From the NCBI RefSeq assembly GCF_007197995.1, contig NZ_VKKH01000001.1, forward strand, positions 372,001 to 436,000: DNA of 64,000 nucleotides, given 5' to 3'. Positions 2,444 to 54,229 of this stretch are shown in pieces. The stretch's first letter is position 1, and every line of letters starts with the position of its first letter. The DNA is from Aliiglaciecola sp. M165 (lineage in GTDB: Bacteria > Pseudomonadota > Gammaproteobacteria > Enterobacterales > Alteromonadaceae). Position numbers and translations under genes: made by a program. The notes beneath the pieces were generated by a model, which saw only the letters and a list, made by a program, of their open reading frames with translations, did no database searches and was not told the origin of the DNA.

Positions 2444-3880
2444 GTGTTTTTTAATCATTCCTATGCAAAAGATCTTCAAGATCTAGTCTCCCCGGTCAAG
2501 GTTGCGCCTTTGTTTAATGCTAAGTTGCGGCTTTTTAATAAAACCTTAGCTCAAGAGATTAAATTTCCTGAACATTTACATCAGCCAGAATCGTTGATTT
2601 CGGCTCTGTTCAACCCCCAAAGCGAATTAAATCGTCACTCGATAGCACAAAAATATGGCGGTCATCAGTTTGGCAGTTGGAACCCTGAGCTAGGTGACGG
2701 TCGCGGATTATTGCTAGCGGAATTACGAACGTCAGAAAGTCGTAATGTTGATTTGCATTTAAAAGGTGCAGGTAAAACTCCCTACTCTCGCTTTGGAGAC
2801 GGTCGAGCGGTTTTACGTTCAACCATCCGTGAATACCTTGCAAGCGAGGCACTTCATCATTTGGGAATTCCGACATCTCGGGCGTTGTGCCTGATTTCAA
2901 GCCAAGAACCTGTTTATCGAGAAAAGCAGGAGCATGGAGCTATGCTGATCCGAACTTGCCAAAGCCATTTGCGTTTTGGCCACTTCGAATATTTTTATCA
3001 CAGCAAACAACCAGAAAAGTTGGAAAAACTTTTTCAATACACGTTAGCGAATCATTTTCCTCAGTGTCTTGAACAAAAGAATGCGCACCAAGCCATGCTG
3101 TCACAGATTGTCAACGATACTGCCGATCTTGTCGCAAAGTGGCAAAGTTTTGGGTTTTGCCATGGGGTAATGAATACCGACAACATGTCAATTCATGGTA
3201 TCACGTTCGATTTTGGACCCTATGCGTTTCTCGATAACTTCGAACCTGGCTATATTTGCAATCATTCAGATCATCAAGGGCGTTATGCATTCGACCAACA
3301 ACCGGGTGTAGCATTATGGAATTTAAATGCTCTGGCCCATGCATTTACGCCTTACATGAGTATTGATGAGATCAAAGAAACCTTAGGCGAATATGAACCC
3401 AGGTTGACCGAGCAATATGCAAAGTTAATGCGCAAAAAACTGGGCCTGCAACAAGAAAAGCAGGCGGATATGACATTAGTCAACCAATGGCTGTCACTGC
3501 TTGAAAACGACAAACGTGATTATACTGCTTCTTTTAGACTATTAAGCCAGGCTAATCTTAGTCAGCAAGATGTTATCGATCACTTTATTGGCAGGGAGGC
3601 GGCTGGCACCTGGTTTAAGCAGTATAGTCGGCGCTTAGAACTGGAAACCCAATCCTGTGAACAAAGAGCAATGTTAATGCGTGCCGCTAACCCGAAATAT
3701 GTTTTAAGAAACTATCTTGCTCAAATCGCTATAGACAGAGCCGAAGAAGGGAATTTTGCGGAATGTGAGCGTTTACTGACAGTTTTACAATCGCCGTTTG
3801 AAGAACAACTAGAACACCAAGCATACGCAAAAACACCCCCGGATTGGGGCCAATCGATGGAAATATCATGCAGCAGTTGA
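2444..3880 (+). CDS. selO: Protein adenylyltransferase SelO (YdiU/UPF0061)
   Basis: A 478-residue pseudokinase-fold enzyme. The characterised SelO family transfers AMP from ATP to Ser/Thr/Tyr hydroxyls of proteins and helps with redox stress. Family signatures are present: YGGHQFGSWNPELGDGRG near residue 70, LKGAGKTPYSRFGDGRAVLR near 110, HGVMNTDNMS near 240 and TFDFGPYAFLD just after. The C-terminus ends SCSS with a conserved Cys (selenocysteine in animal homologues). The length equals the E. coli protein. The start is a GTG; no better in-frame start precedes it. The next gene overlaps its end, suggesting translational coupling. Confidence 0.95.
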   Translation: MFFNHSYAKDLQDLVSPVKVAPLFNAKLRLFNKTLAQEIKFPEHLHQPESLISALFNPQSELNRHSIAQKYGGHQFGSWNPELGDGRGLLLAELRTSESRNVDLHLKGAGKTPYSRFGDGRAVLRSTIREYLASEALHHLGIPTSRALCLISSQEPVYREKQEHGAMLIRTCQSHLRFGHFEYFYHSKQPEKLEKLFQYTLANHFPQCLEQKNAHQAMLSQIVNDTADLVAKWQSFGFCHGVMNTDNMSIHGITFDFGPYAFLDNFEPGYICNHSDHQGRYAFDQQPGVALWNLNALAHAFTPYMSIDEIKETLGEYEPRLTEQYAKLMRKKLGLQQEKQADMTLVNQWLSLLENDKRDYTASFRLLSQANLSQQDVIDHFIGREAAGTWFKQYSRRLELETQSCEQRAMLMRAANPKYVLRNYLAQIAIDRAEEGNFAECERLLTVLQSPFEEQLEHQAYAKTPPDWGQSMEISCSS

Positions 3881-4176
3881 TGATTGGACAATGGCACCCC
3901 GTAGACAAAAATTTTCAAGCTCATATTGTAAGTCATCAAACACACTTCCCCAGTCAACAAGAATTTGTATCTTGGGTGAATCACAAGGTTGAGATGTCAT
4001 CGCTTAAATTGATTGATTTAAGTACTGGCTCTGATCGTGCGCAAGCACACGTGGTTTTTAAAAAATCGGACTTTACGATATGTTTTGATGGCACTTGTGA
4101 AGCAATTTGGCTAGAACCGGTTGGCGGAATTCGACAAACAGATTTGGATAGCATCTTGGTTAAATTAACCCGTTAA
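3868..4176 (+). CDS. Small conserved protein downstream of selO (possibly DUF3630-like)
   Basis: About 102 residues, soluble, with no signal peptide or membrane segment. I do not recognise a function. Composition and position recall the short gammaproteobacterial DUF3630 proteins, but this is from memory and unverified. The ATG at 3868 lies inside the end of selO; a second ATG at 3880 shares its A with the selO TGA (TGATG), a typical coupling overlap, so either may be the start. A TTG at 3844 would lengthen it but is less likely. Being cotranslated with selO, it may act with it; that is inference. Confidence 0.6.
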   Translation: MQQLMIGQWHPVDKNFQAHIVSHQTHFPSQQEFVSWVNHKVEMSSLKLIDLSTGSDRAQAHVVFKKSDFTICFDGTCEAIWLEPVGGIRQTDLDSILVKLTR

Positions 4177-4216
4177 GGTATGGTTTAATCCTGTGATGAT
4201 TTAGGCGAAATTTGGA

Positions 4217-38880: not shown

Positions 38881-41292
38881 TTAATCCAAACTTCCCCTAT
38901 CCAGAGTTTCTTGCCATGCATCTGGATAGTCGCTTAGGTTTATTCTCTCCAACATTTGCAACCTAGGTTGTATGACGAAGAGGGTGTTGTAGGGTGCGTC
39001 AGGATTGCTTGGATCAGTGGAAGACAATTGAGCATCGTGTTCAACCACATAAATGCGACCATTCTCATCCACCGTAACAATATGCCATTCTCTTTGGCGA
39101 AGAGATTGCCCCTCAAATCTGTTAAATTCGTAAACTATATTATTGCCTGTTTGAGACCAAGACCAATCCATCGAGTCCTGTGTGAAATACTGTAGTTCTG
39201 TGGACTCAGCGAAACCAGTTGAAAAAACGCGTCTCATCGTAAAGTTGTCTCTAAGGTGAAAGGAAAATATGTAATCTAGGTCTAATAAATCACCATCCCA
39301 ATTTTGACCGTCATCGGCATTGATTAGCGTGGTATAAACAAAAGGCAAATCGCCGGTCAAAGAAGAAGCTTGTAGATCATTGCTTTCATCAAACTTTGCC
39401 ATTTTTGCCGTATAGATTGAAACGAGACGGTTGTTTTGAAAATACCTAACCTGGGCAGAATATTCGATGCCATTGCTAATAAAAGGGGTGAATTCAAACC
39501 TTTCAGAATCTGAGCTTAAGGTTATTACCCCTTCGGAGATTGAAGATACAAACTGCCCTCCACTGAACTGGCCGGCCGCAGAGCCATCATCAAAAATGGT
39601 AACGATTTCCATTTTTTCACCTTGGCCAAAATCAGGGTCTGTATCAATGCCTAATACTTGACCAATGTATTCATAAACCAGAGGCAGTGCCCATTTACCA
39701 ACTAAATCAGCCGCTGTCATGTCTTTAACAATGGATTCTACGCCAGCGAACACATCACGGTTTTGCGAATCTGATGAATCTAGTGAGAAAGAGACACCCT
39801 CTATGATATCGATTTTCTCTTGTTCAGTAGTTTCTATGACAACCTGCAATGGAGTACCACTTGCGATAAGTTTAAACGTTTGGGAAACAATACGTTGAGT
39901 GGACAAATACTGTCCACCGTCAAACAAACCATTTTGAATTAACGATTCAATCTCCGTGACTGCGTCAGCACCAAATCGTGCAGAAATTACGGGCGGATCA
40001 TAAAATTCAATATTCTCAGACCCATTTCCATCTTCAAAAGAAAGGTGCAATTGACCATTTTCTACTACCCAAGTGAAAGGGTAATAATGCTCAAGCTGGT
40101 TAAAGTTCTCTGCATGGTAAACACCGGTGCCATCTGCATTAAATTCATAATTAACGCCACGATAGTAAACAAAGCCATCACGCAGTTCATCATTCACTGT
40201 GGTAATGATTTTCCCTGCAACCATGTCGGCGGTGAACTGCTGAGCAACATTGGGGTCATTGATGGTTTCAGTGATGGCTACATTCAGATCTTCTGTGTAG
40301 CTGGCTAATGGGTTGCCTTGCTCATCAACTCTACCCGTTTGTGCGAGATAGCTACTGACAGCCTCTTCAACATTTTCTACCACATCATTTCGCAGTTGAG
40401 AAAATGTGGTTTGGCCTTGCTGCACTTCGTAGTCAGGGTTATCTACAAGAAGTTTGATAAAGGCAGCTGTTTCCAGCAGACGGGTTGAACCAACTCTGGC
40501 AATGATTTCCCGGAATACTTCTGCATTGGCTGGAAGGGTATTCTCGTTATTCTCAAGGGCTAACAAATAGGCTGCAGTTGAAAGATGCGTTACGTTGACC
40601 GCGCGCAATTGCTCCGGCGTGATCTGTCTATCTTCCAGCGCTAATTGCAAGACTTCGTTAACGTTACCAAGGTAGCTGGTAAGTTCAATAAACTGCTGCT
40701 GATTGTCTTGTGCACCAACGGCAGATAAAACGACTTGAGAGGTTAATTCACGGATCACGATTGGTAACTGGTATTCACCATTTTGATCAGCGACCGTTTC
40801 AAAAACTTCACCGCCTAGTTGCAATGTCACTGTGGCGCCGGCAATAGGACTGTCTGTAACGATACCCGATAGGGTGGCCGTTTGTTCGTTTTGCAAAGTA
40901 ACTTGAGCTTCAGCGGTTAATTCACTGTCGCTGATTTCATAGGTCATTGAATCAGTTCCTACATGCCCTGCATTGGGCGTGTAAACCAATTGACCATTTG
41001 CAATGGAAACTGTGCCGTTCGTTGGCTCTTGCACTATCCGCAATATGGTTAAGGTATCGTTTTCTCCATCGCTGTCATTTGCCAATACGTCAATGGTGAC
41101 CGACAAATTATCGCGGGCAGAAGCCTGATCATTTGTGGCAACAGGCGCTGTATTTGGTGGTGGAGGTGGTGGTGGCGGAGGAGGAGTAGGCTCTCCACCA
41201 CCGCCGCTGCATGCGGTCAACGTTGTGGACATCAACAACCCGAGCATTGTTAACTTAAACGGATTGATCTTTTTAAAGTTATTATTTCCCAT
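38881..41292 (-). CDS. Large surface lipoprotein with Ig-like and carboxypeptidase-regulatory-like domains
   Basis: 803 residues. The lipobox LTAC makes Cys28 the lipidated residue, followed by GGGG and a run of ten prolines. An Ig-like/cadherin-like domain (about 50-140: IDVLANDSDGENDTLTI, then LVYTPNAGHVGTDSMTYEIS) is followed by a beta-sandwich repeat (about 145-215: LSGIVTDSPIAGATVTL). The remaining ~580 residues have no domain I recognise and are rich in Tyr/Phe/Asp. Likely anchored to the outer membrane and exposed. Single gene with its own terminator. Confidence 0.85.
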   Translation of the reverse strand: MGNNNFKKINPFKLTMLGLLMSTTLTACSGGGGEPTPPPPPPPPPPNTAPVATNDQASARDNLSVTIDVLANDSDGENDTLTILRIVQEPTNGTVSIANGQLVYTPNAGHVGTDSMTYEISDSELTAEAQVTLQNEQTATLSGIVTDSPIAGATVTLQLGGEVFETVADQNGEYQLPIVIRELTSQVVLSAVGAQDNQQQFIELTSYLGNVNEVLQLALEDRQITPEQLRAVNVTHLSTAAYLLALENNENTLPANAEVFREIIARVGSTRLLETAAFIKLLVDNPDYEVQQGQTTFSQLRNDVVENVEEAVSSYLAQTGRVDEQGNPLASYTEDLNVAITETINDPNVAQQFTADMVAGKIITTVNDELRDGFVYYRGVNYEFNADGTGVYHAENFNQLEHYYPFTWVVENGQLHLSFEDGNGSENIEFYDPPVISARFGADAVTEIESLIQNGLFDGGQYLSTQRIVSQTFKLIASGTPLQVVIETTEQEKIDIIEGVSFSLDSSDSQNRDVFAGVESIVKDMTAADLVGKWALPLVYEYIGQVLGIDTDPDFGQGEKMEIVTIFDDGSAAGQFSGGQFVSSISEGVITLSSDSERFEFTPFISNGIEYSAQVRYFQNNRLVSIYTAKMAKFDESNDLQASSLTGDLPFVYTTLINADDGQNWDGDLLDLDYIFSFHLRDNFTMRRVFSTGFAESTELQYFTQDSMDWSWSQTGNNIVYEFNRFEGQSLRQREWHIVTVDENGRIYVVEHDAQLSSTDPSNPDAPYNTLFVIQPRLQMLERINLSDYPDAWQETLDRGSLD

Positions 41293-41423: not shown

Positions 41424-42770
41424 CTAAGCAATCTGTGCATTAGTTTTTGCATACGGTAACCAACACTCTGCAATGCACCCTGATTGATCGCTGCGGTTAA
41501 TCAATCGCAACGTGCCATTATGCGCTTCGGCAATTTGGCGGCACAAAAACAGCCCAATGCCGTTGCCGTCTGGTTTGGTTGTGTAAAAGGGGACAAAGAG
41601 GTTGTCTGAACTGGGAAGACCAATGCCTTGGTCAATAATTTGAATTCGAACACCTTGATTAAAACCTTGCCACTGTATGCTCACCGGAGTTTTTGCGCTT
41701 GAGGCCTCCACGGCATTTTTCATTAGATTTATCAAAAGCTGCTGAAGCTGATCTGGGTCAACGTCTATTGCCAAAGGTTCTGTGTTTTTGATCGCAAACT
41801 CGCCTTCCAATAATTCGCTCAGCCCTTGCACCAATTGCAGTAAGTCGGTTTTGCGTTTTTCAGGTGTGGGTAATTTGGCAAGTTTTGTATAGGCTTCAGT
41901 AAACTTCAGGAGACTTTTACTTCGTTCCTGCATCAGCGATAGGGCTTTTTCGTAACTTTGATGCCAGGCCTGTGTCTTTTCATCATACAAACGCGTTATT
42001 AAGGTCTCGCTTACCGAAATCATTGAGGCCAGAGAGTTATTTAACTCATGACCCAGCACTCTTATCAAACGAAGCCATGCACTCCGCTCTTCCTCTCTGA
42101 GCGTTCGAGACAAGTCATTCACCAATAGCAATGAATAGCGCTGTTCGCCCTGGATAAAATAGTTTTTACGCAATTCCCACCGGCCGCCGCGACTTGGAAA
42201 CCAATGTTCTACCACATCTCCTGAAGCATGCTCAATTAGTTGGTTTAAGTGCAGTTGTATTAAGTTCATACCCAATAACGAAGACTTGGATTTGGCAAAC
42301 AGCTCACATCCCATGTCATTGATGTTTTTCAAGATATCATTGCGATCAAATACAAATACGGGAACATCGAATTCAGCAAGGAGTTTGTCGAGCAATATGT
42401 CTGTTTCAACAAATTGCAGGCGTTTTTTTTGGTGACCTTCTGCCAGAAGGTTAATCTCTCGATAAACATCGCTCCAGGCACTGTCTGAATTTTGCGCGGC
42501 TATTCTCATGCTGTAGTCGCCCATACGCAGACTTTCGATCACATTGGCCAGACTATAAAAATGCCGTTCCAAAACACTTTTTATATGAAAGGCAATCAAT
42601 AACCAAACAACCACGATTAAGGGAATAAAAGTGAAGACGCTCAGCCAACTAGCTTCGGCGTACCAAAATAGAAAAATAACCACTATTAGGAATACTGAAC
42701 CCATGAGTAACACCCATCGAAAAATCGTGGTTTCAAGGGTGTGAGATGGTTTATCGAGTTTTACATCCAA
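41424..42770 (-). CDS. Sensor histidine kinase, NtrY-like
   Basis: 448 residues. Two membrane helices (about 18-35, 42-62), a HAMP-like linker, a PAS-like region (about 120-215), a dimerisation domain with phospho-His241 in VLGHELNNSLASM and a full ATPase domain: N-box LINLMKNAVEAS, G1 IIDQGIGLP, G2 GNGIGLFLCRQIAEAHNG. It should phosphorylate the sigma-54 response regulator whose stop is 9 bp upstream of its TTG start; AAAGGA overlapping the regulator stop serves as ribosome-binding site. Last gene of a five-gene operon with an ABC exporter. Confidence 0.91.
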   Translation of the reverse strand: MDVKLDKPSHTLETTIFRWVLLMGSVFLIVVIFLFWYAEASWLSVFTFIPLIVVVWLLIAFHIKSVLERHFYSLANVIESLRMGDYSMRIAAQNSDSAWSDVYREINLLAEGHQKKRLQFVETDILLDKLLAEFDVPVFVFDRNDILKNINDMGCELFAKSKSSLLGMNLIQLHLNQLIEHASGDVVEHWFPSRGGRWELRKNYFIQGEQRYSLLLVNDLSRTLREEERSAWLRLIRVLGHELNNSLASMISVSETLITRLYDEKTQAWHQSYEKALSLMQERSKSLLKFTEAYTKLAKLPTPEKRKTDLLQLVQGLSELLEGEFAIKNTEPLAIDVDPDQLQQLLINLMKNAVEASSAKTPVSIQWQGFNQGVRIQIIDQGIGLPSSDNLFVPFYTTKPDGNGIGLFLCRQIAEAHNGTLRLINRSDQSGCIAECWLPYAKTNAQIA

Positions 42771-42779
42771 GATTTTCAG

Positions 42780-44150
42780 TCATCCTTTCAAATCTAGATC
42801 GTTTAAATCCTCATATTTATCTAACCGACGATACAGTGCAGCGCGAGAAATGCCAAGCTTTTCAGCAGCCAGTAAAATATTGCCATCACTTGATTTGATT
42901 GCGTTGGAAATCAGCAGTTTCTCAGCTTCCTCCAGGGTCATCTGAGTCAAATCCGATTGTTTTGTTGACGACGTTAAACCTAAGTCTTCTGCAACGATTG
43001 ACTGAGCCGACGCCATCAGTACCGCCCGCTCTATGCAGTGGGACAACTCTCTGACATTTCCCGGCCAGGAGTGCTGAATAAGTGCTTTTTTAGCATCATC
43101 AGACAAGTCAAGTTCTGGACGTCGATACTTTGATTTCAATTTATTCAGGAATGACTCAGCTAGCGGCACTATGTCAGCATTTCGCTTGCGAAGAGGTGGT
43201 ATTTCAATTGTGATGGTATTTAGTCTGTATAGAAGATCCTGGCGAAACCGACCTTCTTCAACCTCTAAGCCAAAATCAACATTACTTGCCGATATTATTC
43301 TCACATCCGCTTTTTTCGTTTTAGAAGAACCGAGCTGTTCAAATTCCCCAGATTCAAGCACTCTTAACATTTTGCCTTGCAATGCCATGGGAATATTTGC
43401 AATTTCATCTAAAAACAAAGTGCCTTTGTCTGCCATTTCAAAACGCCCCATGCGATTCGCCTTGGCATCGGTAAAAGCACCTTTTTGATGACCGAATAAC
43501 TCACTTTCAAAAAGTGAATCGGAGAGTGCTCCCATATTCACACTCACCATTGGGGCGTTATTTCGTGGACTTAGGTTATGTATCAGGGTTGCAAACAGGC
43601 TTTTTCCAACACCACTTTCTCCTGTGAGCAAAATATTGGCATCGCTCGAAGCCGTGCGTTCTATAAGCTGCATGACTGGCTGCATGGCTTCGTCCACCGC
43701 TATGACGCTTTCAGACGTCTGCGGTTTCTTGGCTAGCTCGGTCAAGCGGCGATTGTTTAATTTTTCTTGGGCAAGGGAAATGTGGTTATTTATAAGTGAA
43801 AGTAAACGCGCGTTATTCCAGGGTTTCTCGATAAAATCATTAGCACCTGATTTTATCGCAGAAACACTAAGTTCGATGTTTGCCCACGCTGTCATGACAA
43901 TGATGGGCAACGCTTGATCGATTAGACGAATCTGTTTTATTAACGCAATTCCCTCATCTCCAGATGTGGTGTCTTTCGCGTAGTTCATGTCCATCAGCAC
44001 TAAGTCAAAGCTTTGCTTATCCAAGACATGCAGCGCACTCTGCGGCGTATCGACCTCCGTTATTTCGAACCCTTCGGGTTCAAGCAATAAGGCTAGCGAT
44101 TGGCGTATGTGCGCTTGGTCATCAGCAATGAGTATTCTAGTGTTAGGCAT
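42780..44150 (-). CDS. Sigma-54-dependent response regulator, NtrC family
   Basis: 456 residues. Receiver (about 4-120) with phosphoacceptor Asp54 in DLVLMDMNYAKD. AAA+ domain (about 155-385) with Walker A LLTGESGVGKS and Walker B GTLFLDEIANIP. The sigma-54-contact loop reads GAFTDA rather than the canonical GAFTGA. A Fis-type HTH closes the protein (about 410-450: LLAAEKLGISRAALYRRLDK). It activates sigma-54 promoters; a good candidate lies before its own operon at 48631-48646. It overlaps nothing and lies 19 bp after the permease gene. Confidence 0.92.
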   Translation of the reverse strand: MPNTRILIADDQAHIRQSLALLLEPEGFEITEVDTPQSALHVLDKQSFDLVLMDMNYAKDTTSGDEGIALIKQIRLIDQALPIIVMTAWANIELSVSAIKSGANDFIEKPWNNARLLSLINNHISLAQEKLNNRRLTELAKKPQTSESVIAVDEAMQPVMQLIERTASSDANILLTGESGVGKSLFATLIHNLSPRNNAPMVSVNMGALSDSLFESELFGHQKGAFTDAKANRMGRFEMADKGTLFLDEIANIPMALQGKMLRVLESGEFEQLGSSKTKKADVRIISASNVDFGLEVEEGRFRQDLLYRLNTITIEIPPLRKRNADIVPLAESFLNKLKSKYRRPELDLSDDAKKALIQHSWPGNVRELSHCIERAVLMASAQSIVAEDLGLTSSTKQSDLTQMTLEEAEKLLISNAIKSSDGNILLAAEKLGISRAALYRRLDKYEDLNDLDLKG

Positions 44151-44169
44151 AGGTTAAACGTCTTATTTT

Positions 44170-46563
44170 TTATTCATATTGTAAAGCTTGTTGGGGATGA
44201 ACTCTGGTCGCTCGTCGGGCAGGTATCCAGGTAGCAAATAGCCCAACTAGAAACAACACAATAGGAACCGCCGCAAAGGTTATTGGATCCAAGGTATTCA
44301 CTCCATAGAGTACACTAGCGATAAATTGACTGAAAATAAATGCCAGTATCATGCCGACTATCGCCCCTACTAAAACGGGTCGCGCTGTATCTCGAATAAT
44401 CCAGCGTTTAATGACGTTGGGCCTTGCGCCGATGGCCATGCGAATGCCAATTTCGTTAGTGCGTTGACTAACCATGTTGTCGCTAATGCCGTAAACGCCT
44501 ATGCTGGCTAACAATAATGCTATAGCAGCAAAAATGGCCAAAACGGTTAACAGCAATTTTTCTTCGACAATAGAAGTACGGGTCAACTCTTCTAAGGTTT
44601 CGATTAGGATCATGGGCGCCGTCGCTTCCAATTGAATAGAGGTCTGAAGCATATGATTTTTAATCGCGCCAATAGAATCCGCGTCTGTTTTTACCAAAAC
44701 CGTCATACCTGGATAGTTTAGTTGTGTGATCGGCAAGAAAAATTCAGCTACGGGTGCTGCCCTCAGGCCACGATGTTTAACATTTCCCACCACGCCGACA
44801 ACAGTATGGTCCCCGCCCATCCATTCAGGCAAACTTAAAATATTGCCGATTACCTGTTGATTTGGCCAGGCCTGTTCCGCAAGTTTTTGGTTTATTACAA
44901 CCACTTTGGGACTTTCTTTGGTATCCCGTAAATCAAACTCACGACCTTCGAGCAAAGGAATTTCTAACAGATTGAAATATCCACTGGTAATGGTGCGAAC
45001 ATGACCAGATGGTTCTTCGCCTCGAGGTACTGATGGCGCACCAGGGAATGAATAGTTAATTGAAAAATCGATGCCAGTTCTTCCCATTGGCATAGTAGAC
45101 GTACCCGCCACTTCTAAAATTTTGGGGTGTTGTTTCAAGGTTTCTACAACGTTAAACCAAAAACCGGCGCGAGTAGGTTGTGGCTCAAAATTATCAGGTA
45201 GCCAAATATGTCCTGTCACAACATTAGTTGTATTGAATCCGGTGGCTTGGTTAGACAATTGAATATAACTTCGCATAAGTAGCCCAGCGCAAATAAGCAA
45301 TACAACTGCCACACAGACTTCACCAGAGACAAGCAATCGACGTACGCGCTGACTTTTTTCGTCACCGGTTACCTTGCGCCCGGCAGATTTAATCGCATCG
45401 GATAGTTTGTTGGGATTAACAATCGAGTATGCAGGGATCAATGTGGTTGCAAGGGTCGATAAAGTAATCAGTACCATTACAGCAATAACTGTATTGTGAT
45501 CAATACCGACCTCATACAACCTCGGAAGTCTTGAACCCATTAGACTCTGAATCCATTCGATCGACCAAGCCGAAAGTAATAGCCCCAATATTCCGCCAAC
45601 TGAACATAAAAGTAAGCTTTCAGTTAGCAGCTGACGCAGCAGCCGTGAGCGAGAAGCACCCACAGATACCCGTACTGCAAGTTCTTGAGTTCGATTGGCG
45701 TATTGTGCAAAAGTTAAATTGACCACATTTAACACAGCAATTAGGAAAACGGCGAGTACTGAAGCCAATAACAGATACAGGGAAGGCTTGGAATCACCCA
45801 CTATCCGTTCTAGGATGGGCACATAATGAATTTCCCATACGTAATCTGTGTCTCCTCCGGACTGATTGATAAGACGCTGAATACCAGCAGATTGTTGCTT
45901 GGCTTGTTCTACATTCAGGCCTGATTGGAACCTGCTAACGACCAACACGGGTCTATCCAGCTGGTCAATAGGCATCCATAAATCGACCGATGTATAGCCT
46001 GTACTGGAGTAATTCGGTGGCATCACACCGATAACCTGAAAATCCTGATTGTTAAGTTTTATCATTCGATTGAGGATGTCAGGATCGCCGCTGAAATCTC
46101 GCTGCCAAACCTTGTGACTGATAAGCAGTGATTGAGTGTTGATATCGCTTTGCTCGTACCATCTTCCTAAGAATGGCTTAACGCCAAACATCGACAAGTA
46201 ATTGTGGCTGGTAATAAGCATCGTCAGCGGTTTTTGTTGCTCTCCTTGGGCAAGCGTCGCTTGATCAAATGCGTAGTAGGCCATTTCTTTTAACGGCGAT
46301 TGTGTATCTTGTATCTGTTTATAAAAATCGAGGTTGAAGCTGTTATTCAATTCGTTCTTCTTCACATTCATTGTACCGACAAACACCAGCTCCTCAGCAT
46401 TTGGAAACGGCAAAGGTTTGAGTAACACGTTGTTTACAAGGGTAAACATCGCGGTAGTGATTCCAATACCCAGTGCCAGAGTCAAAATGGCGATGAACGA
46501 AAAAATGGGGCTAGCTTTCAAACTACGAAAACCAAATTCAATGTCCCCTAATAACCTTTCCAT
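44170..46563 (-). CDS. ABC transporter permease, duplicated MacB/FtsX (ADOP-like)
   Basis: 797 residues, two FtsX-like modules in one chain. Each has a MacB periplasmic core domain and an FtsX helix set, giving about eight membrane helices. The start has the pattern SLKASPIFSFIAILTLALG then NNVLLKPLPFPNAEELV, a signature of 'acidobacterial duplicated orphan permeases'; the end is ARRATRVHPQQALQYE. Unlike orphan members it sits with its own ATPase and adaptor. MacB-type complexes move substrates from periplasm outward rather than across the inner membrane. Substrate unknown; toxic peptide, lipid or antibiotic are possible. Confidence 0.9.
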   Translation of the reverse strand: MERLLGDIEFGFRSLKASPIFSFIAILTLALGIGITTAMFTLVNNVLLKPLPFPNAEELVFVGTMNVKKNELNNSFNLDFYKQIQDTQSPLKEMAYYAFDQATLAQGEQQKPLTMLITSHNYLSMFGVKPFLGRWYEQSDINTQSLLISHKVWQRDFSGDPDILNRMIKLNNQDFQVIGVMPPNYSSTGYTSVDLWMPIDQLDRPVLVVSRFQSGLNVEQAKQQSAGIQRLINQSGGDTDYVWEIHYVPILERIVGDSKPSLYLLLASVLAVFLIAVLNVVNLTFAQYANRTQELAVRVSVGASRSRLLRQLLTESLLLCSVGGILGLLLSAWSIEWIQSLMGSRLPRLYEVGIDHNTVIAVMVLITLSTLATTLIPAYSIVNPNKLSDAIKSAGRKVTGDEKSQRVRRLLVSGEVCVAVVLLICAGLLMRSYIQLSNQATGFNTTNVVTGHIWLPDNFEPQPTRAGFWFNVVETLKQHPKILEVAGTSTMPMGRTGIDFSINYSFPGAPSVPRGEEPSGHVRTITSGYFNLLEIPLLEGREFDLRDTKESPKVVVINQKLAEQAWPNQQVIGNILSLPEWMGGDHTVVGVVGNVKHRGLRAAPVAEFFLPITQLNYPGMTVLVKTDADSIGAIKNHMLQTSIQLEATAPMILIETLEELTRTSIVEEKLLLTVLAIFAAIALLLASIGVYGISDNMVSQRTNEIGIRMAIGARPNVIKRWIIRDTARPVLVGAIVGMILAFIFSQFIASVLYGVNTLDPITFAAVPIVLFLVGLFATWIPARRATRVHPQQALQYE

Positions 46564-46572
46564 ATGCGCCTC

Positions 46573-47292
46573 CTATTGATTTGCTGCCATGGGATGAAGA
46601 GGAATTTGCTCGTCTACCATTTTGCCGTCGAATAATTGCACCACACGATCCGTAAGATCGGCGTAGCGCGTATCGTGGGTCACCATGCAAATCGTCGTGC
46701 CTTGTTGATTAAGGTCACTGAGTAACTGGATGACCGCCTCACCATTCTTAGAATCCAGATTCCCAGTTGGTTCATCCGCAAGCAACAGTGTGGGCTCACT
46801 GACCAAGGCTCTGGCAACCGCAACACGCTGTTGTTGCCCGCCAGATAATTGTCCAGGGAAATGCCGATTACGGTGACTCATACCAACTTTTTCTAACGCA
46901 ACGTTTACTTTTTCAAGACGTTGGGATTTGGACATGTCATCACGATAAGTAAGTGGCAATTCAACGTTCTCAAACACACTCAGGTTGCCGATTAGATTGA
47001 AGGCCTGGAACACGAAGCCTATGGATTCGCAACGAAGACGGGCACGTTGGTCTAAATCCAAATTTTCAGTGGATTGCCCGTTAATTAAATAGCTACCTGA
47101 GCTGGGCACATCCAGTAGGCCTAAAATGGACAACAATGTCGATTTTCCGCACCCTGAGGGCCCGGCTATAGATAAAAATTCGCCTTTTTGAATATCGAAA
47201 CCAATGTTAGACAAGGCATGGGTTTCGATTTCATCTGTTCGAAAAACCTTGCTCACATTTTGAAGTGAAATGATTGTGTTTGAATTCGTCAT
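46573..47292 (-). CDS. ABC transporter ATP-binding protein, MacB/LolD type
   Basis: 239 residues, a complete nucleotide-binding domain: Walker A GPSGCGKST, Q-loop region GFVFQAFNLIGNLSVFENVE, signature LSGGQQQRVAVARAL, Walker B LLLADEPTGNLD and H-loop TICMVTHDTRYA. This is the MacB/LolD/FtsE class that powers mechanotransmission permeases. It lies 9 bp before the permease gene and 21 bp after the adaptor gene. Confidence 0.94.
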   Translation of the reverse strand: MTNSNTIISLQNVSKVFRTDEIETHALSNIGFDIQKGEFLSIAGPSGCGKSTLLSILGLLDVPSSGSYLINGQSTENLDLDQRARLRCESIGFVFQAFNLIGNLSVFENVELPLTYRDDMSKSQRLEKVNVALEKVGMSHRNRHFPGQLSGGQQQRVAVARALVSEPTLLLADEPTGNLDSKNGEAVIQLLSDLNQQGTTICMVTHDTRYADLTDRVVQLFDGKMVDEQIPLHPMAANQ

Positions 47293-47313
47293 GAGGGTCT
47301 CCGAGTTTGCTGT

Positions 47314-48570
47314 TTATTGCGTTAATCTAATGGCATCGTGTTGGGTAAATTCAGACATATCTGAAACAATTACCGAATCACCTTGCTGTAAACCTGCGAT
47401 GATTTGAATGGATGATACCGATGCTTTTCCAAGTTTAATTTTGCGTTGTTGTGCTAACCGTTGATCGCTATCTAATGTAAACAATCGGGTATCGGTCAGC
47501 GCAACTGCACCGGCTGGACGATCAATATAAAGTGCGTTTTCAATCTGTTCGACAATGATGGTGCCAGTTACGCTTAAATCTGGACGGGCGCCGTTAGGAA
47601 GCTGCCCTGTCAATTCAACGTCTACTTGCACATTGCCGTTTTGCACTCGTGGATCAATGCGCTTCACTACGCCCTCAACCAATCCGTTTCGGGTGTCGAT
47701 CGTCGCGACAAAACCCAGCTGTAAGTCCTGCACAAGATTCTCTTGAATCTGCAGCTCCGCCATAAGTGAATCTGGACGAGCGACTCGCGCAATATTCCCA
47801 CCAACTTCAACCCGTTGACCGACATCGACCGATATTTGTTGTAAAACACCGTCGATATCAGCAGTAATTTTTAAGGCATTCAATTGGGACTCGAAGCGGT
47901 TGAGCATATTCCTGAATTTGCGTACTTTCGCTTCTTCCGCTGCCAACTTGGCACTGACCACATCCGCTCTACGCTTCTGGGTTTTTAATCGAATATCCAA
48001 TTCCGCTTGCCTTTGCTTGGTGTTCAGTTGGGTCGTCGCAAAATCCAAATCAGAAATGATGTGTTTATCTGCTAAGGGCTGCTCAGCCTTTTGCTTTAAT
48101 TTGGCAGTTTCCAGAAACATTCTGGATTGAGTAACCATTAGCTCTTGTTCTAATGTTTGTTCTTCGAGCTGCGCCGCCAGGGCCAATAAGTTTGCTTCAG
48201 CAGCATCCAACTCCCACTGTGCCTGCTCGTATTGGCTTAAAATGTCTGGATTAGATAGCTCAGCAATAACTGTATCGCGACTAACCAGTGCGCCGGGTTT
48301 GATCAATAGACGTTCAACCCGCCCTGCTGACGCTGCAGCAATCCAGCGTATTTCTGAGGGAGCAAGCACACCTACTCCACGAACTTTACGGGTAAACTCA
48401 CCTTGTTTGACTTCGCTGATCCAAACATCCGTTTGTTTGACAGAAGGTACAGCCGGGTCGAAATAGCTAGCAGAGATAAAAGCAATCGCAATTAGCCCTG
48501 CAAGAATATATGCAAACCGGTACTTCTTTTTAAAAAGCGATTTGCTAGTAGTTTCAATTGGCATATCCAC
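47314..48570 (-). CDS. HlyD/MacA-like periplasmic adaptor
   Basis: 418 residues with one N-terminal membrane helix (about 16-34), a split lipoyl domain (VRGVGVLAPSEIRWIAAASA ... KITADIDGVLQQISVDVGQ) around a long coiled hairpin (about 110-225) and barrel domains. It is the adaptor of the ABC exporter and the first gene of the operon. The GTG at 48570 follows GGGAGGAG with 6-nt spacing; an ATG two codons later is the alternative. A sigma-54-type promoter lies about 60 bp upstream. Confidence 0.91.
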   Translation of the reverse strand: MDMPIETTSKSLFKKKYRFAYILAGLIAIAFISASYFDPAVPSVKQTDVWISEVKQGEFTRKVRGVGVLAPSEIRWIAAASAGRVERLLIKPGALVSRDTVIAELSNPDILSQYEQAQWELDAAEANLLALAAQLEEQTLEQELMVTQSRMFLETAKLKQKAEQPLADKHIISDLDFATTQLNTKQRQAELDIRLKTQKRRADVVSAKLAAEEAKVRKFRNMLNRFESQLNALKITADIDGVLQQISVDVGQRVEVGGNIARVARPDSLMAELQIQENLVQDLQLGFVATIDTRNGLVEGVVKRIDPRVQNGNVQVDVELTGQLPNGARPDLSVTGTIIVEQIENALYIDRPAGAVALTDTRLFTLDSDQRLAQQRKIKLGKASVSSIQIIAGLQQGDSVIVSDMSEFTQHDAIRLTQ

Positions 48571-48758: not shown

Positions 48759-51392
48759 TTATTGCATCGACTTAATTCGATTTACAAAATCTCGGTATTG
48801 AGTCGTGTCAATATCATAGGTTTGTTTAAAACTCTCTACTGACGCAGTGAGGGCCTCTTGTAGCATTTCGTCAGACAATTTTTTCTCCCGCCATGCTATT
48901 AATGCGCCATATGCCTTTATGATGGAAAAACGATAATTGTCTTTTTCATCCAAGTGCTTTTCTGCATTTATTATTGCCATATCGAGGGCTTTTGAAGCCT
49001 CAGCATAACTATTTTGAAAGTACAAAGATGCACTAAGCTCAAGTGACATGACAATAATATCTGCTGAGCCATTTGGGTTGATTTCATTAAAACGGGAAAG
49101 GGCTTCCGTAAGGATATTCTCCGCTTCTTTGATATTGCCAGCAAGCAAATGAATCCTTCCAATCACACTTAATGAAATAGGATAAAAGGGATGTTGTTTC
49201 CCCACGGTCTGTCCTACAACCTCCAGCATTGCTTCTCTGCTTTCAATCGCCTTAGCATAGTTTTGCTGCGCTACAAGTATGTTGGCTACCATGCCCATAC
49301 TTGCTGCAATCTCTATGCTTGGGCCTTTGTGTATATCTTGGCGAATTTTCAGACCTTTTTTCGCATAATCCAGGGCTTCGTCGTATTCGTTAAGCTGAAG
49401 AAGTGTATTAGAAAATTGATTCAAACCGTGAGCGAGATCCAAAGTAGGCTTCACATCATATTTGTTGTTAAATGCCAACCCCTTAAGCATATATTCCTTG
49501 GACTCTTCGAATCTAGACATATCACGAAGCACTGCACCTGCACCAAAATATGCACTCGCGGTATATTCTTCTTCGTATTGCGTATTTTCAGAAAGCGCAA
49601 TCACTTGTTCAAAATTTTGCAAACTAGGCGCGTTTTTTAAGGTATAGGTTTGAGCCGCAGCCAAACTATAGTGAGCGGCTATTTTATAGTAATTGAGGTC
49701 TAAATTTACTACATCACGCAGTGAACTGATTATTTCCAAATTTTTGCGGTGAGAGTTGCTTGCACTTAGATAGTCACCTGTTACAACCTGTAAAGCACCG
49801 AGTTGGTATAGTGACATCACTCTTAGCCGCTGCTGCGCGCTGCCAGATAATGAATTCTCTGCAAGCTGAGTTTCAACATGTTGAATCAGCTCAAATGCTT
49901 TATCCACCTCATTTATTTGCTGATAAACTCCCGCCAAAACAATCAACAACTCTGCTTGAATAGCAGGTGCTCCATCCAACGCCAAAGCAGAAGCATAGGC
50001 TTCATCAATCAATGTCGCTGCACTAATGACCTCACCATCATTAACGTTTGGATCAGCAGATACAAATATATCGGTCAAGTATCGAGTAGTCTCTTGCGCA
50101 ATTGAGGCTTGTTGCACTGCCCTGTCTCGTTGCTGTTGAATTTGGGCCGACTGATAAGACACTACAACAGCGAAACTCACCAGACCTATCACCAATACAC
50201 CCGCTAAACTTGAACTGAGTTTATTACGCTGTACGAACTTTGAAAAACCGTACCATCGGCTGGGTGGTCTGGAAATTATCGGAAAATTAGAGCGGTAACA
50301 CTGAATGTCATAAGCCAAGGCTTCAACACTCACGTAGCGCTTATCGGCTGCTTTGTTCAGCGCTTTTAAAACAATAGTATCTAAATCACCTTTTACGGCA
50401 GATAGCCTGGATTGTATGGTTAAATCTGAAGATTCCTTGCATCGTTGGCTCGGCTTTACAGGTGTTTGCTCGAGAATTTTAGTTTCAAGCTCACGTTGAG
50501 TAGAGTCCGTAAAATCAAACACTGGCGTGTTTGTCAGTAACTGCATCAATAGACTACCGAGACCATACACGTCGGTAGAGGTCGTAACGGGCTCTCCGAG
50601 TACCTGTTCAGGGGCAGCATTACTGTGAGTTAATACACGGATAGAAACTTGAGTGAGATGATTATTGGTATTTTCTTTGTCTTCTTCGAGAAGCTTTGCG
50701 ATACCAAAATCAAGCAGCTTCACTCTGCCCCCTTTAGTTACCAAAACGTTACTTGGCTTGATATCCCGATGTACAACTAAATTTTGGTGAGAATAGGTTA
50801 CAGCACTAAGCACTTGTTGATATAAATCGAGGACTTGATCTGTTGTTAACTTATTCTGTCGGCAATATTCACTAATATTTACCCCATCAACATATTCTAA
50901 AATGATATAGGGAAAACCTTCATGGGTTTGCCCACCGCCAATAAAACCTGCGATGTTAGGATGTTTTAGAGAAGCTAGTATTTGGCGTTCAAGCTTAAAA
51001 CGTTGCTCGTTGAGTTGGCCAAGCATTCTTTGATGTATAACTTTTATCGCAACAAGTTGGCTAAAATCTGAGTTTTCGCGTTCAGCAAGAAACACGCTAC
51101 CCATACCACCTTCACCTATAGGTGACACAATCCTAAACTGCTCGATGGTGTCTCCCACCGTTAGTTTTGCTTCAGATTCCAAAAATTGTGCGGCGTTGAC
51201 ATCAACGATCTTAGATATCTCGTTACCACTATCACTGATAGCCGTGCTTTCATTTAGCATAGCGAGTACTCGCTCAGCAAGTTCATCATCACCTTTTGTA
51301 TGTCCTTGAATAAAGGCTTCTCGCTCGTCAGGTTCAAGTGTTAGTGCTTCGTTGAATAAATCCTTAATACGATCCCACTTGTGTTTATCCAT
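48759..51392 (-). CDS. Membrane Ser/Thr protein kinase with C-terminal TPR repeats
   Basis: 877 residues. An N-terminal helical segment (1-85) is followed by a Hanks-type kinase (about 88-370): Gly loop IGEGGMGSVFLAE, Lys in LVAIKVIHQ, catalytic loop VVHRDIKPSNVLV (about residue 205), DFG in KLLDFGIAKLL and APEQVLGEP. One membrane helix follows (about 391-411, SLAGVLVIGLVSFAVVVSY), then ~450 residues of TPR-like repeats predicted to be periplasmic. So a periplasmic sensor arm is joined to a cytoplasmic kinase. The gene starts 3 bp after the ECF sigma gene, so the kinase very likely controls that sigma factor. Confidence 0.92.
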   Translation of the reverse strand: MDKHKWDRIKDLFNEALTLEPDEREAFIQGHTKGDDELAERVLAMLNESTAISDSGNEISKIVDVNAAQFLESEAKLTVGDTIEQFRIVSPIGEGGMGSVFLAERENSDFSQLVAIKVIHQRMLGQLNEQRFKLERQILASLKHPNIAGFIGGGQTHEGFPYIILEYVDGVNISEYCRQNKLTTDQVLDLYQQVLSAVTYSHQNLVVHRDIKPSNVLVTKGGRVKLLDFGIAKLLEEDKENTNNHLTQVSIRVLTHSNAAPEQVLGEPVTTSTDVYGLGSLLMQLLTNTPVFDFTDSTQRELETKILEQTPVKPSQRCKESSDLTIQSRLSAVKGDLDTIVLKALNKAADKRYVSVEALAYDIQCYRSNFPIISRPPSRWYGFSKFVQRNKLSSSLAGVLVIGLVSFAVVVSYQSAQIQQQRDRAVQQASIAQETTRYLTDIFVSADPNVNDGEVISAATLIDEAYASALALDGAPAIQAELLIVLAGVYQQINEVDKAFELIQHVETQLAENSLSGSAQQRLRVMSLYQLGALQVVTGDYLSASNSHRKNLEIISSLRDVVNLDLNYYKIAAHYSLAAAQTYTLKNAPSLQNFEQVIALSENTQYEEEYTASAYFGAGAVLRDMSRFEESKEYMLKGLAFNNKYDVKPTLDLAHGLNQFSNTLLQLNEYDEALDYAKKGLKIRQDIHKGPSIEIAASMGMVANILVAQQNYAKAIESREAMLEVVGQTVGKQHPFYPISLSVIGRIHLLAGNIKEAENILTEALSRFNEINPNGSADIIVMSLELSASLYFQNSYAEASKALDMAIINAEKHLDEKDNYRFSIIKAYGALIAWREKKLSDEMLQEALTASVESFKQTYDIDTTQYRDFVNRIKSMQ

Positions 51393-51395
51393 TAA

Positions 51396-51938
51396 TTAAC
51401 CTTTTCCTAATTTCGCCATTTCAACCTTCAGCCACGCTCTAGCAGCTTTCAAATCTCGCTCTAAGGTTGCGTGCGACACATTCATGACAGAAGCAACTTC
51501 ATTATTGCTCAACTCTGAAAACAATTTTAATTCAAAGGCTTGCGCACTTCTTTTATCAAACGCAGCTAGTTCCGTGAGCAATTTGTCCAAATAAATTAAC
51601 TCTACCGTGTTGATATCTGACTGATCCGCTATCTCGCTGATTGTCACCAATACTGATTTTCCACTGCGCTTGTTTGTCAGTTTTTTACGAGCATGATCCA
51701 CAAGGATTCGGCGCATTTGCCTGGCCGCAATGGCGATAAAATGTGCTTTATTGTCAACGTCTATCTCTTTACCCGCTAAATTAACATAGGCCTCATTCAC
51801 CAATGCAGTAGCTTGCAGAGTGTGCCCGGAACGCTCTTTGAACATATAACGTCTAGCAATCTTTTTGAGCTCATCTAGTAACGCAGATTGCTGTTGTTCG
51901 CTTAGCTCCTTAAAACCGTCGTCGAAGCATATTTCCAT
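51396..51938 (-). CDS. ECF sigma factor (TIGR02999 / ECF43-like)
   Basis: 180 residues with sigma-2 (about 20-95: TALVNEAYVNLAG, HFIAIAARQMRRILVDHARK) and sigma-4 (about 115-175: ELKLFSELSNNEVASVMNVS, ATLERDLKAARAWLK). The HTLQATALVNEAY and ARQMRRILVDHARKK segments are typical of ECF sigma factors paired with Ser/Thr kinases instead of anti-sigma factors. None of the neighbours looks like an anti-sigma factor. In the characterised EcfP/PknT pair of Vibrio parahaemolyticus, phosphorylation by the kinase activates the sigma factor; the same is inferred here. First gene of the operon. Confidence 0.92.
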   Translation of the reverse strand: MEICFDDGFKELSEQQQSALLDELKKIARRYMFKERSGHTLQATALVNEAYVNLAGKEIDVDNKAHFIAIAARQMRRILVDHARKKLTNKRSGKSVLVTISEIADQSDINTVELIYLDKLLTELAAFDKRSAQAFELKLFSELSNNEVASVMNVSHATLERDLKAARAWLKVEMAKLGKG

Positions 51939-52234
51939 CTAGAAACACCGTTGTGTATTTTTTAGGCAAAAATTGACTTTACTGCAAAAGTAAGGATTTG
52001 AATAGCTTGGCAAAACACACCAGACCACATGATTCTTCGCCTAATCAGATAATACTGTGGAAATACACTTTTTCTCTCACTTTCTAACTGCGAGAAATCT
52101 CCGATTTAGCCCTCAAAAACTTTTTTGAGGGCGTTTTAACACTTTTCACGCATTGGGTTAGTGAACATGAAAATAACTGTCAAACCGACGGTCTCGATTG
52201 CGCAGCAATCACGCTCATGTAAAAGGAGAAAAAT
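51939..52234. promoter_or_regulatory. Divergent region, ECF operon / Gly-rich lipoprotein
   Basis: This 296-bp gap has no ORF of note. It holds promoters in both directions, a terminator-like hairpin at 52109-52132 in the plus orientation, and a good ribosome-binding site (AAAAGGAG) before the lipoprotein start. A TTGACT at 51973-51978 could be a -35, but no convincing -10 follows. Confidence 0.45.
52109..52137 (+). terminator. Terminator-like hairpin in the lipoprotein leader
   Basis: Arms GCCCTCAAAAA (52109-52119) and TTTTTGAGGGC (52122-52132) form a long stem followed by GTTTTAAC. As both flanking genes point away from it, it cannot end either of them: it may be a leader attenuator or the end of a small RNA starting near 52000. 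Confidence 0.55.
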
Positions 52235-54229
52235 ATGAAAAGCTTACAAATAACAGCCCAAGAGAAGGGTATATATAAATTATCTTTGTTAACTAGCGCC
52301 ATCCTTGGTGCCTTACTCTTAAGTGCATGTGGAGGCGGCGGTGGTGACAGTTCTACGTCGACACCGGTAACACCCCCTCCACCACCTCCTCCACCTGATA
52401 CCCCACCAAGCGTTAGCGTAGACTCCCGTATTATTGTCAGCGTGGGGGATTCCGTGAGCTTTAGTGCCTCGGCATCTGATCCCGATGGAGACGACATATC
52501 TTATGAGTGGGTGCAGCAAAGCGGCGAGCCAGTGTCGAACTCTAGCGGCTTCGACACTGCTACCGCGAGTTTTAGCGCTCCAGACAGCGTGAGTAGTTTT
52601 ACCTTTGAAGTGACCGCTACTGCTAATGGACAATCTGATTCAGCGTCCATTTTGGTAATCGTGTTAGAAGATGTCGACACGGCCGTGTTTATTGATGCGC
52701 AGTTTACCGGTGCATCTGATGGCTCAATCGATGCTCCGTATAAAGAGTTTGCTAGCGTCCTTGAGCAAAACCTCGACGACAACACTGACGTCGATTTCTA
52801 TATCAAAACGCCTACAGATGATACGGTGTTTTCGTTGTGGGAAGGTGACACTAGGACAATCAGCCAAAACATCAGCTTTTATGGTGGCTACTTAGAAGAT
52901 TGGCACCGAGATGCCACCAACCAACGTACCCCAATAATGACCGAGAATGAAGCGGGTATTCGCTATTCTAGCACTGACCAATACGTTGAAGTGTCAGGCA
53001 TCGACTTAATGCTAAATCTAGATGCAGTCGACAACGGTACTAGTGTGGTCGGAATTCAGGGTGTCTCTCTTGATCACCTTATGATCCGAGATAACACTAT
53101 CAGCTTGAGTGACTATCCCTTCGATAACTCATCGGCATCAGTTTATGGTGTTATATCTGACCAAATCACCTCTTTCAGCTTACTCAATAATACCATAACA
53201 AGTGGTTCGGCCCCGGCGAGCGCAAGAGATGCAGTGCAAAACAATCGAGGTGCTGGTGCTGATGGGCGAAATGGCAGTAATGGCGATGGTGCCGATGGTG
53301 GTATTGGCGGTGACTCAGATACGGGAATAAGCGGTGGCGGACAAGGGGGAGATGGAGGCAGAGGCTCTTCTGAAGATGGCGAAAGAGGTGAAGATTCCAG
53401 GCTGGGTTTCTCAACTGGTCCGGGCGCAGGTGGCGCTGGCGGCGATGCATCTGAAGATGAAGACGATGGTGTAAATGGTGTAAATGGAAACAATGGAATC
53501 ACTGGTTCAGCAGGTAATGGTGGTACTGGGTTTGGCCGTTTTACTAATGGAGGTCGATTCGCTACGTCTAGCGGCTCTCTTGGGCGGAGTGGTTCTGATG
53601 GCGCGGGCGGCGGTGGAGGCGGAGGCGGCGGTTCGTCGACCTTAGGCTTTAATGGCGGCGGCGGTGGCGGCGGTGGCGAAGGTGGCGAAGGTGGTGAAGG
53701 TGGCTTTGGAGCCAATTCAGGCGGCGCATCCATTGGCGTTTATGTCATTCAAGGCGCGCTCAACGACATCGCGGGCAATACCATCACGACTAGCAATGGC
53801 GGTATTGGGGGCATCGGTGGCTTGGGAGCTAGCGGTGGCGACGGAGGTTCAGGCGGTAGCGGCGCAGACGGTAACTCAAGCAACTCTGGTGACGGCGGAA
53901 ATGGTGGTAATGGCGGTGACGGTGGCGACGGCGGCATCGGCGGTTCAGGTGGCGGTGGCCCAACATTTGGCATATTACTTAACTCTGACACCTTTGCCAC
54001 GATTAGTAATAATCAAATCACCACGGGTAATGGTGGTAACGGAGGTAGCGCAATCATTGCAATCGAGCAAGCCGCAGGCAAAGGTGGTTGGAGTATTGGC
54101 ATTTTTGATGCGAACACAGAGGATGCGTCAACTCCTACTCTCGATGGTAACACCTTTACCATTGGCGAGGCAGGTGATGATGGCAACCCTTCTGCAGGAA
54201 CCGGAACGGCTGCGGACACTAATTTTTAA
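52235..54229 (+). CDS. Lipoprotein with Ig/PKD-like domain and Gly-rich inserts in a beta-helix-like fold
   Basis: 664 residues. Signal with lipobox LLLSAC (Cys32), then GGGGG and a Thr/Pro spacer. An Ig/PKD-like domain (about 52-145: VSVGDSVSFSASASDPDGD, then ISYEWVQQSG) precedes a parallel-beta-helix-like region (about 150-330). From about residue 335 to 575 come long tracts of Gly with Asn/Asp/Ser, interrupted by rung-like segments: LLNNTITSG, DIAGNTITTSNGG, TISNNQITTGNGG and LDGNTFTIGEAGDDG. Very likely exported and surface-exposed; function unknown. Divergent from the ECF/kinase operon, of which it is a plausible target. Strong AAGGAG and a terminator frame the gene. Confidence 0.85.
   Translation: MKSLQITAQEKGIYKLSLLTSAILGALLLSACGGGGGDSSTSTPVTPPPPPPPPDTPPSVSVDSRIIVSVGDSVSFSASASDPDGDDISYEWVQQSGEPVSNSSGFDTATASFSAPDSVSSFTFEVTATANGQSDSASILVIVLEDVDTAVFIDAQFTGASDGSIDAPYKEFASVLEQNLDDNTDVDFYIKTPTDDTVFSLWEGDTRTISQNISFYGGYLEDWHRDATNQRTPIMTENEAGIRYSSTDQYVEVSGIDLMLNLDAVDNGTSVVGIQGVSLDHLMIRDNTISLSDYPFDNSSASVYGVISDQITSFSLLNNTITSGSAPASARDAVQNNRGAGADGRNGSNGDGADGGIGGDSDTGISGGGQGGDGGRGSSEDGERGEDSRLGFSTGPGAGGAGGDASEDEDDGVNGVNGNNGITGSAGNGGTGFGRFTNGGRFATSSGSLGRSGSDGAGGGGGGGGGSSTLGFNGGGGGGGGEGGEGGEGGFGANSGGASIGVYVIQGALNDIAGNTITTSNGGIGGIGGLGASGGDGGSGGSGADGNSSNSGDGGNGGNGGDGGDGGIGGSGGGGPTFGILLNSDTFATISNNQITTGNGGNGGSAIIAIEQAAGKGGWSIGIFDANTEDASTPTLDGNTFTIGEAGDDGNPSAGTGTAADTNF

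Follow-up and report, generated by a model that had tools for sequence, protein, structure and literature searches.

The 64,000-nucleotide stretch of the Aliiglaciecola sp. M165 genome analyzed here (the window) encodes a lipoprotein in which glycine-rich tracts, with glycine recurring at every third position, are inserted between the rungs of a beta-helix-like domain. The overall explanation that we lean towards is that of a lipid-anchored beta-helix with ordered polyglycine-II (PGII) arms, which probably serves as an adhesin or shield and would be induced through an ECF43-like switch. The product would then be an envelope protein with a signal peptide, Cys32 for lipid anchoring and a flexible Gly/Ser/Pro linker, followed by a PKD domain and then by a beta-helix-like domain, predicted to be most likely right-handed. 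At one corner of this helix, one turn after another would be drawn out into long Gly-rich hairpin arms. The features of the gene are the following:

52235..54229, + strand: lipoprotein coding sequence, 664 residues (ORF list and translation)
52235..52330, + strand: signal sequence and lipobox LLSAC with Cys32, then the Gly/Ser/Pro linker (read by eye)
52436..52663, + strand: PKD domain, residues 68-143 (Pfam PF22352, E 2.7e-10; PF00801, E 2.5e-5)
52670..53041, + strand: putative N-terminal part of the beta-helix-like domain, residues 146-269 (from position and conserved residues)
53042..53113, + strand: rung 1, residues 270-293 (gap-free rung alignment)
53138..53209, + strand: rung 2, residues 302-325 (gap-free rung alignment)
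53210..53725, + strand: insert 1, 172 residues, Gly-rich (rung alignment, Gly periodicity, triplet runs)
53726..53797, + strand: rung 3, residues 498-521 (rung alignment, fragment model)
53798..53872, + strand: insert 2, arm A, residues 522-546 (Gly-triplet runs)
53873..53887, + strand: insert 2, apex, residues 547-551 (holds all five indel columns of insert 2)
53888..53959, + strand: insert 2, arm B, residues 552-575 (Gly-triplet runs)
53960..54031, + strand: rung 4, residues 576-599 (rung alignment, fragment model)
54032..54088, + strand: insert 3, 19 residues, weakly Gly-rich, periodicity not significant (autocorrelation, rung alignment)
54089..54169, + strand: rung 5, residues 619-645, with three extra residues (rung alignment, fragment model)

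Cys32 is invariant in all four aligned proteins, and the matches of the PKD domain to PF22352 and PF00801 each lie above the respective cut-off. Within residues 146-269 the residues of GSIDAP and YGG..DW are conserved in the four-protein alignment, and C-terminal to the PKD domain no Pfam family is matched. Sequence searches of solved structures returned Ig-like, PKD-like or low-complexity matches, none of them convincing. Elsewhere in the window (38881-41292, - strand) an 803-residue protein with Big_9/cadherin-like domains is encoded, the N-terminal part of which matches residues 15-127 of the lipoprotein (33% identity, E 7e-9). A Pro-rich antisense frame of 196 residues (53143-53733, - strand) was discounted as the mere reverse complement of the Gly tract.

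The four 24-residue rungs (1 to 4 above) align without gaps on the pattern G-[IV] ... N-x-I, and the segments separating the five rungs measure 8, 172, 54 and 19 residues; with the rungs in register, the inserts thus emerge at the same corner. Summed over the four rungs, the BLOSUM62 score amounts to 142, compared with at most 28 for shuffled rungs (n=5000), at most 35 for random 24-mers from the non-tract part of the protein (n=20000) and at most 55 when any of rungs 2-4 is slid by one to five residues, and because the register was picked by eye these controls overstate the significance. Turns extended at one side of the beta-helix are accordingly found at the level of sequence, and the rungs recur in the alignment, with strands in equivalent places in a model of low pLDDT. 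The initial annotation, which covered positions 53240-54190 (residues about 336-652), had proposed that Gly tracts alternate with beta-helix-like rungs, and both the rung score and the Gly periodicity described below bear this out. The extent given for the alternation, residues 335-575, does hold rungs and tracts but is too narrow, as rungs are also found at 270-325 and 619-645. Likewise, the tracts were said to start right after an N-x-I-T turn; the inserts do share one corner, but 14 non-Gly residues (325-338) lie between NNTITSG and the first tract.

Gly autocorrelation across residues 333-589 gave z = 7.3 at lag 3, a value reached by none of 2000 shuffles, with z of 4.6 at lag 6 and 2.9 at lag 9; N-terminal Gly linkers were excluded from the periodicity test. 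The main tracts of three homologues (L026, L027 and L023) show lag-3 z values of 7.2, 8.4 and 7.3, and the two main tracts of a fourth (L025) values of 5.4 and 6.1, again reached by 0 of 2000 shuffles in each case. Period 3 was not significant in the short Gly-rich stretches at residues 596-622 of the window protein (17% of shuffles reach it), 640-667 of L027 (11%) and 1121-1150 of L025 (58%). Insert 1 holds runs of seven or eight Gly-every-third triplets at residues 412-432, 447-467 and 471-494, and insert 2 consists of two such runs, its arms, flanking the short apex. In all five proteins compared, insert 2 contains two runs, each 8 to 10 triplets long. The longest unbroken run in the window protein, nine triplets, is weak evidence when taken alone, being reached by 34 of 1000 shuffles; the corresponding numbers are 0 for L026, L027 and L023 and 8 for L025. 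The pattern of rungs and tracts looked for in relatives is present in L026, L027, L023 and L025 as far as Gly periodicity is concerned and in part as regards the rungs: a strict rung pattern derived from the lipoprotein of the window occurs four times in that protein, three times each in L027 and L023 and twice each in L026 and L025.

Identity to the window lipoprotein is 51% for L026 (674 residues as cut), 45% for L027 (667) and 46% for L023 (682), the three homologues aligned with it. Glycines of tract 1 are retained at 62 of 71, 58 of 71 and 56 of 70 positions in L026, L027 and L023, and those of tract 2 at 32, 31 and 32 of 32; overall, 80-100% of tract glycines are retained and 53-69% of their codons have changed. 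Retained glycines with a different codon number 40 of 62, 40 of 58 and 36 of 56 in tract 1 and 17 of 32, 17 of 31 and 18 of 32 in tract 2 (same order), compared with codon changes of 48-84% at conserved Gly, Ala, Pro, Thr and Val residues outside the tracts. In the three-way alignment, Gly is invariant at 58 of 71 positions of tract 1 and 31 of 32 of tract 2, and non-Gly residues at only 10 of 96 and 5 of 24. An octaglycine in insert 1 (residues 458-465) is invariant in all four aligned proteins. All 22 indel columns listed for residues 331-620 fall outside five runs of at least seven triplets, each run being counted from its first to its last Gly and the places depending on the MAFFT alignment. 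Those of insert 1 sit between Gly-triplet runs. In insert 2 length variation between the homologues is confined, in the four-way alignment, to the apex between the arms (five indel columns). Retention of Gly positions despite codon divergence points to a fold that requires Gly at fixed places, and is poorly explained by recent slippage or a free tail. Judged from these sequence patterns, ordered PGII hairpins would fit the tracts better than a disordered tail.

The hairpin arms would be clearest in insert 2, with two arms of about eight triplets each. Such arms most likely would be left-handed PGII helices packed against one another along one face, as in the adhesin gp38 of phages, and the variable apex and the non-Gly side chains may be left free for contact with a partner. 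A full-length single-sequence AlphaFold2 model of the lipoprotein reached a pLDDT of 35 and was unusable, and a model of residues 494-664 together with one relative (L014, two sequences) reached 46. In the latter, each of three rungs has three strands whose positions correspond between the rungs (fragment residues 7-11, 17-20 and 23-25; 84-89, 95-98 and 101-103; 127-132, 142-144 and 147-149, all at low confidence), and no regular structure is assigned in the Gly tracts. Structure prediction agrees, at low confidence, with the rungs proposed earlier. The suggestion that the tracts pack as PGII arms agrees with the alignment of the rungs, the common corner and the Gly pattern and arm lengths conserved between species. 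A Foldseek search of the fragment model against PDB and viral models returned nothing at E 0.001 or better, and the best PDB matches were SufC-SufD chains and pectate lyase 4hwv (E above 6; Z 3.1 for 4hwv). The absence of gp38 from the matches listed for this low-confidence fragment model excludes nothing. As the models are of low confidence and the fold searches gave no significant match, we infer packed PGII helices from the sequence.

The snow flea antifreeze protein has glycine at every third position, and resembles the tracts described here in this and in its richness in Gly, and differs from them in being a small isolated bundle. An ice- or water-binding role, which the initial annotation had raised as a possibility, finds neither support nor contradiction in these data and was set aside. 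The snow flea protein is a Gly-rich PPII/PGII bundle and one of the few solved PGII bundles named in the papers cited here, along with phage gp38 and other phage spikes and ALK/LTK (PMC13243192). Among these, the beta-helix case is the phage adhesin (PMC6851490, PMC12892980). In S16 gp38 (PDB 6F45) two turns of the beta-helix, of 18 and 77 residues, are described as extended into a PGII sandwich of ten Gly-rich helices, one of which is an octaglycine, residues 151-158 (PMC6851490). PP01 gp38 is reported to be similar, with loop residues that cross-link to OmpC (PMC12892980), and loops between the PGII helices are variable in gp38 (PMC6851490, PMC12892980). The initial annotation regarded a beta-helix carrying PGII bundles as an unusual architecture; since S16 gp38, which that annotation itself names, and PP01 gp38 are described in these papers as such, the architecture exists already, in phages. 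The window protein is like gp38, as described there, in having beta-helix turns extended into Gly-rich segments and an octaglycine. Unlike gp38, it is a lipoprotein of a cell, carries a PKD domain and matches no phage family, and its Gly runs span 7-9 triplets, compared with PPII segments of 6-9 residues tabulated in PMC13243192. A sequence relation to phage tail adhesins is not recognizable in Pfam (no phage-tail family match), in PHROGs at E up to 1 (a single match, to a tape-measure family, E 0.75) or by tblastn against 50,697 phage records (no match at 1e-5, low-complexity filter on).

The GGX repeats of mycobacterial PE_PGRS proteins have been proposed and predicted to form PGII sandwiches, with helices of three to five triplets in PE_PGRS33 (PMC10216338). 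The lipoprotein shares the period-3 Gly repeats with this family as it is described there, but its Gly arms interrupt a beta-helix-like domain, where PE_PGRS proteins have a separate sail built from helices of 3-5 triplets. Hallmarks of PE_PGRS proteins are absent, with no PE domain match in Pfam and no GRPLI in the translation, and a lipobox and PKD domain are present instead. The idea that myxobacterial beta-helix proteins with Gly inserts are alike gained no support from a literature search. Among the papers listed for polyglycine and beta-helix terms and for Alteromonas surface proteins, none appeared to deal with a bacterial protein of such a plan. The combination of beta-helix and PGII is known from phages, and the window protein would be its counterpart in a lipoprotein encoded on a bacterial chromosome. 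If so, a bacterial lipoprotein of gp38-like plan with arms of about eight triplets would widen the known range of the PGII fold.

Other explanations of the tracts have to be weighed against this. They could be disordered low-complexity linkers that arose by DNA repeat slippage and have no fold, as the low confidence of AlphaFold2 on both occasions (pLDDT 35 and 46) would suggest; DNA repeats within the gene are few and short (five rows), and those in the tracts have units of 9 or 18 bases. Nevertheless, this is unlikely given that Gly positions are conserved between species although their codons have diverged, that indels avoid the long runs and that the main tracts keep a strict Gly period of 3. 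Collagen-like triple helices, through which the protein would trimerize, are a very improbable alternative: in L026, L027 and L023, 15 or 16 Gly-X-X triplets do follow one another without a break, but residues 331-576 of the window protein hold only two Pro, GGX and GGG triplets are frequent, and the tracts begin and finish at neighboring beta-helix rungs, which would favor hairpins.

It is also conceivable, though we consider it improbable, that the protein is a beta-helix that binds or degrades polysaccharides and that the Gly loops are decorative. The fold match to pectate lyase (Z 3.1) is a weak one, and the resemblance of the PKD stretch to the cellulose-binding protein domain PF21027 is sub-threshold (21.2 bits, cut-off 27), with PDB 2yhg matched at E 0.011 in the sequence search of solved structures. 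Against this, no polysaccharide lyase or glycosidase model of Pfam or NCBIfam is matched at E up to 1, and most non-Gly residues of 146-330 vary, only 33 of 173 being invariant in the three-way alignment. The sole enzyme models matched by the lipoprotein are two M36 metallopeptidases, via the PKD-like stretch and far below cut-off. We therefore retain the lipid-anchored beta-helix with ordered PGII arms, probably exposed at the cell surface, as the preferred reading.

The region upstream of the lipoprotein gene and the divergently oriented genes beyond it may bear on its expression:

52126..52154, + strand: promoter-like element TGANGGNNTTTTN11CGCNT (80 bp before the start codon)
51396..51938, - strand: ECF sigma factor, ECF43-like (TIGR02999, 166 bits against a cut-off of 126; QATA, Thr44)
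48759..51392, - strand: Ser/Thr kinase with C-terminal TPRs and a hydrophobic segment at residues 392-412 (Pfam Pkinase, E 2.4e-43; TPR)

The element occurs with identical spacing in all four upstream regions compared (window, L026, L027 and L023), which are the same four sequences on which it was defined; the stretch from L026 includes 21 bases after the listed start, and those from L027 and L023 were cut to 329 and 250 bases. A 29-base comparison of these regions, which came from a greedy search, begins five bases before the element and ignores the relatedness of the sequences, yielded 13 invariant columns, a number reached by none of 400 shuffled sets (largest 11). The spacing of its two halves presumably resembles that of an ECF promoter, and no sigma-70-like site was found in the intergenic region upstream of the gene. 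The genomes G121, G144 and G211 each contain one perfect match, directly upstream of the lipoprotein homologue. The gene was not found in G009, begins off the contig in G237 and persists only as a remnant in G140, and none of these three genomes has a perfect match. The copy at 52126-52154 is the sole perfect one among four matches in the window at up to two mismatches, the average for shuffled sequence being 2.2. The genome of the strain itself contains three perfect matches. The copy at 52126-52154 alone is completely clear of predicted frames; of the other two, one is inside a frame (L030) and one overlaps a frame start at the first ATG (L031). At up to one mismatch, 13 matches were counted in this genome (ten with one mismatch), compared with four for the reversed pattern. 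An autoregulatory copy at the sigma factor gene was considered and rejected, as the window holds no second perfect match. At about 52108-52132, the TGAGGG half of the element forms one arm of an inverted repeat seen by eye (CCCTCAAAAA ... TTTTTTGAGGG), which is seemingly absent upstream in L026, L027 and L023 and was not listed by the terminator scan.

Homologues of both the sigma factor and the kinase are found, in varying gene order, at three of the five other homologue loci (L025, L026 and L027). At L024 a kinase-like C-terminal TPR fragment lies about 3 kb away (3556-4572; 27% identity, E 2e-26). At L023 neither gene is matched within 6.5 and 7.4 kb on the two sides (16 kb read), and the same genome has a sigma factor of 58% identity on another contig, adjoined by a kinase frame. 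The region 2.2 phosphosite Thr is present in all four sigma factors, as QATA in the window, L025 and L027 and as QATE in L026; the label ECF43-like rests on this motif and the TIGR02999 match. The Thr of the QAT(A/E) motif is described as phosphorylated in ECF43 members (PMC13147305, PMC8999054), and EcfK is reported to retain an acidic residue at the motif, as does QATE of L026 (PMC13147305). The pair resembles EcfP-PknT and EcfK-PknS in the adjacency of sigma factor and kinase and in the Thr phosphosite (PMC13147305, PMC8999054). In contrast, the targets of ECF43/Hanks-type pairs named in these sources are type VI secretion or polymyxin resistance, and here the neighbor is a Gly-rich lipoprotein. 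A close sigma factor was found in five of six carriers and in 14 of 236 other family genomes (Fisher p about 1e-5, for two separately drawn samples, with kinship ignored and G140 assumed to belong to the second sample). Such sigma factor genes also occur without a Gly-rich neighbor: at eight of 18 other sigma factor places, which were read, no frame has more than 12 Gly per 30 residues, and a kinase motif is present at five of the eight.

The lipoprotein gene is probably transcribed from the conserved element by the ECF43-like sigma factor, which its Ser/Thr kinase would activate, and production of the lipoprotein as an adhesin or shield may be a response to envelope or predator cues. For the kinase and sigma factor pair, the one conserved promoter-like site provides an output open to direct testing. 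Only tentatively do we suggest the wider possibility that in Alteromonadaceae a phospho-switched sigma factor serves one target through a dedicated promoter, namely a beta-helix/PGII surface lipoprotein whose induction would provide adhesion or shield the cell from predators, phages or antimicrobials. Following the kinase at L027 (13429-14178), L064 (11499-12245) and L065 (11519-12220) is a frame with an ADGMGGH motif, which by eye may encode a PP2C phosphatase, and some loci may therefore hold a trio of sigma factor, kinase and phosphatase. In the window, an operon-like run on the - strand (41424-48570) encodes an HlyD-type adaptor, an ABC ATPase, a MacB/FtsX permease, a sigma-54-activating response regulator and a histidine-kinase-like protein; the adaptor matches a darobactin-export adaptor model with E 3.3e-27 and 95 bits (cut-off 450).

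Full-length relatives are present in three of nine genomes of the genus (own included). A whole-protein search of the family sample at 1e-15 matched seven of 196 genomes, three (own included) along the whole length and four within residues 13-179 only, and a C-terminal profile matched six of 246 family genomes. In the phylum sample the same profile at 1e-8 found one of 299, the own genome. An N-terminal search of the class sample matched two of 274 genomes; the second match (L028) is weak (E 5.8e-5) and belongs to a 568-residue frame with 8% Gly. Scans of genome contigs yielded only L014, whose contig (CANLWS010000004.1), judging by the translated protein, seems to be that of L008/L026, and no relatives were found in the viral contigs, plasmids or phages searched. 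In G140 (L024) a 111-residue frame matches about the last 103 residues and represents a remnant of the 3' end only. This remnant (L024 7544-8279) is adjoined by a 106-residue frame that, judged by eye, may encode an IS-element protein. In G237 (L025 2-3532) a frame of 1177 residues, open at the contig end, shares the layout of the C-terminal part and includes a PKD domain; its long extension at the N-terminus comprises a putative Ig domain and a bacterial TSP3 repeat.
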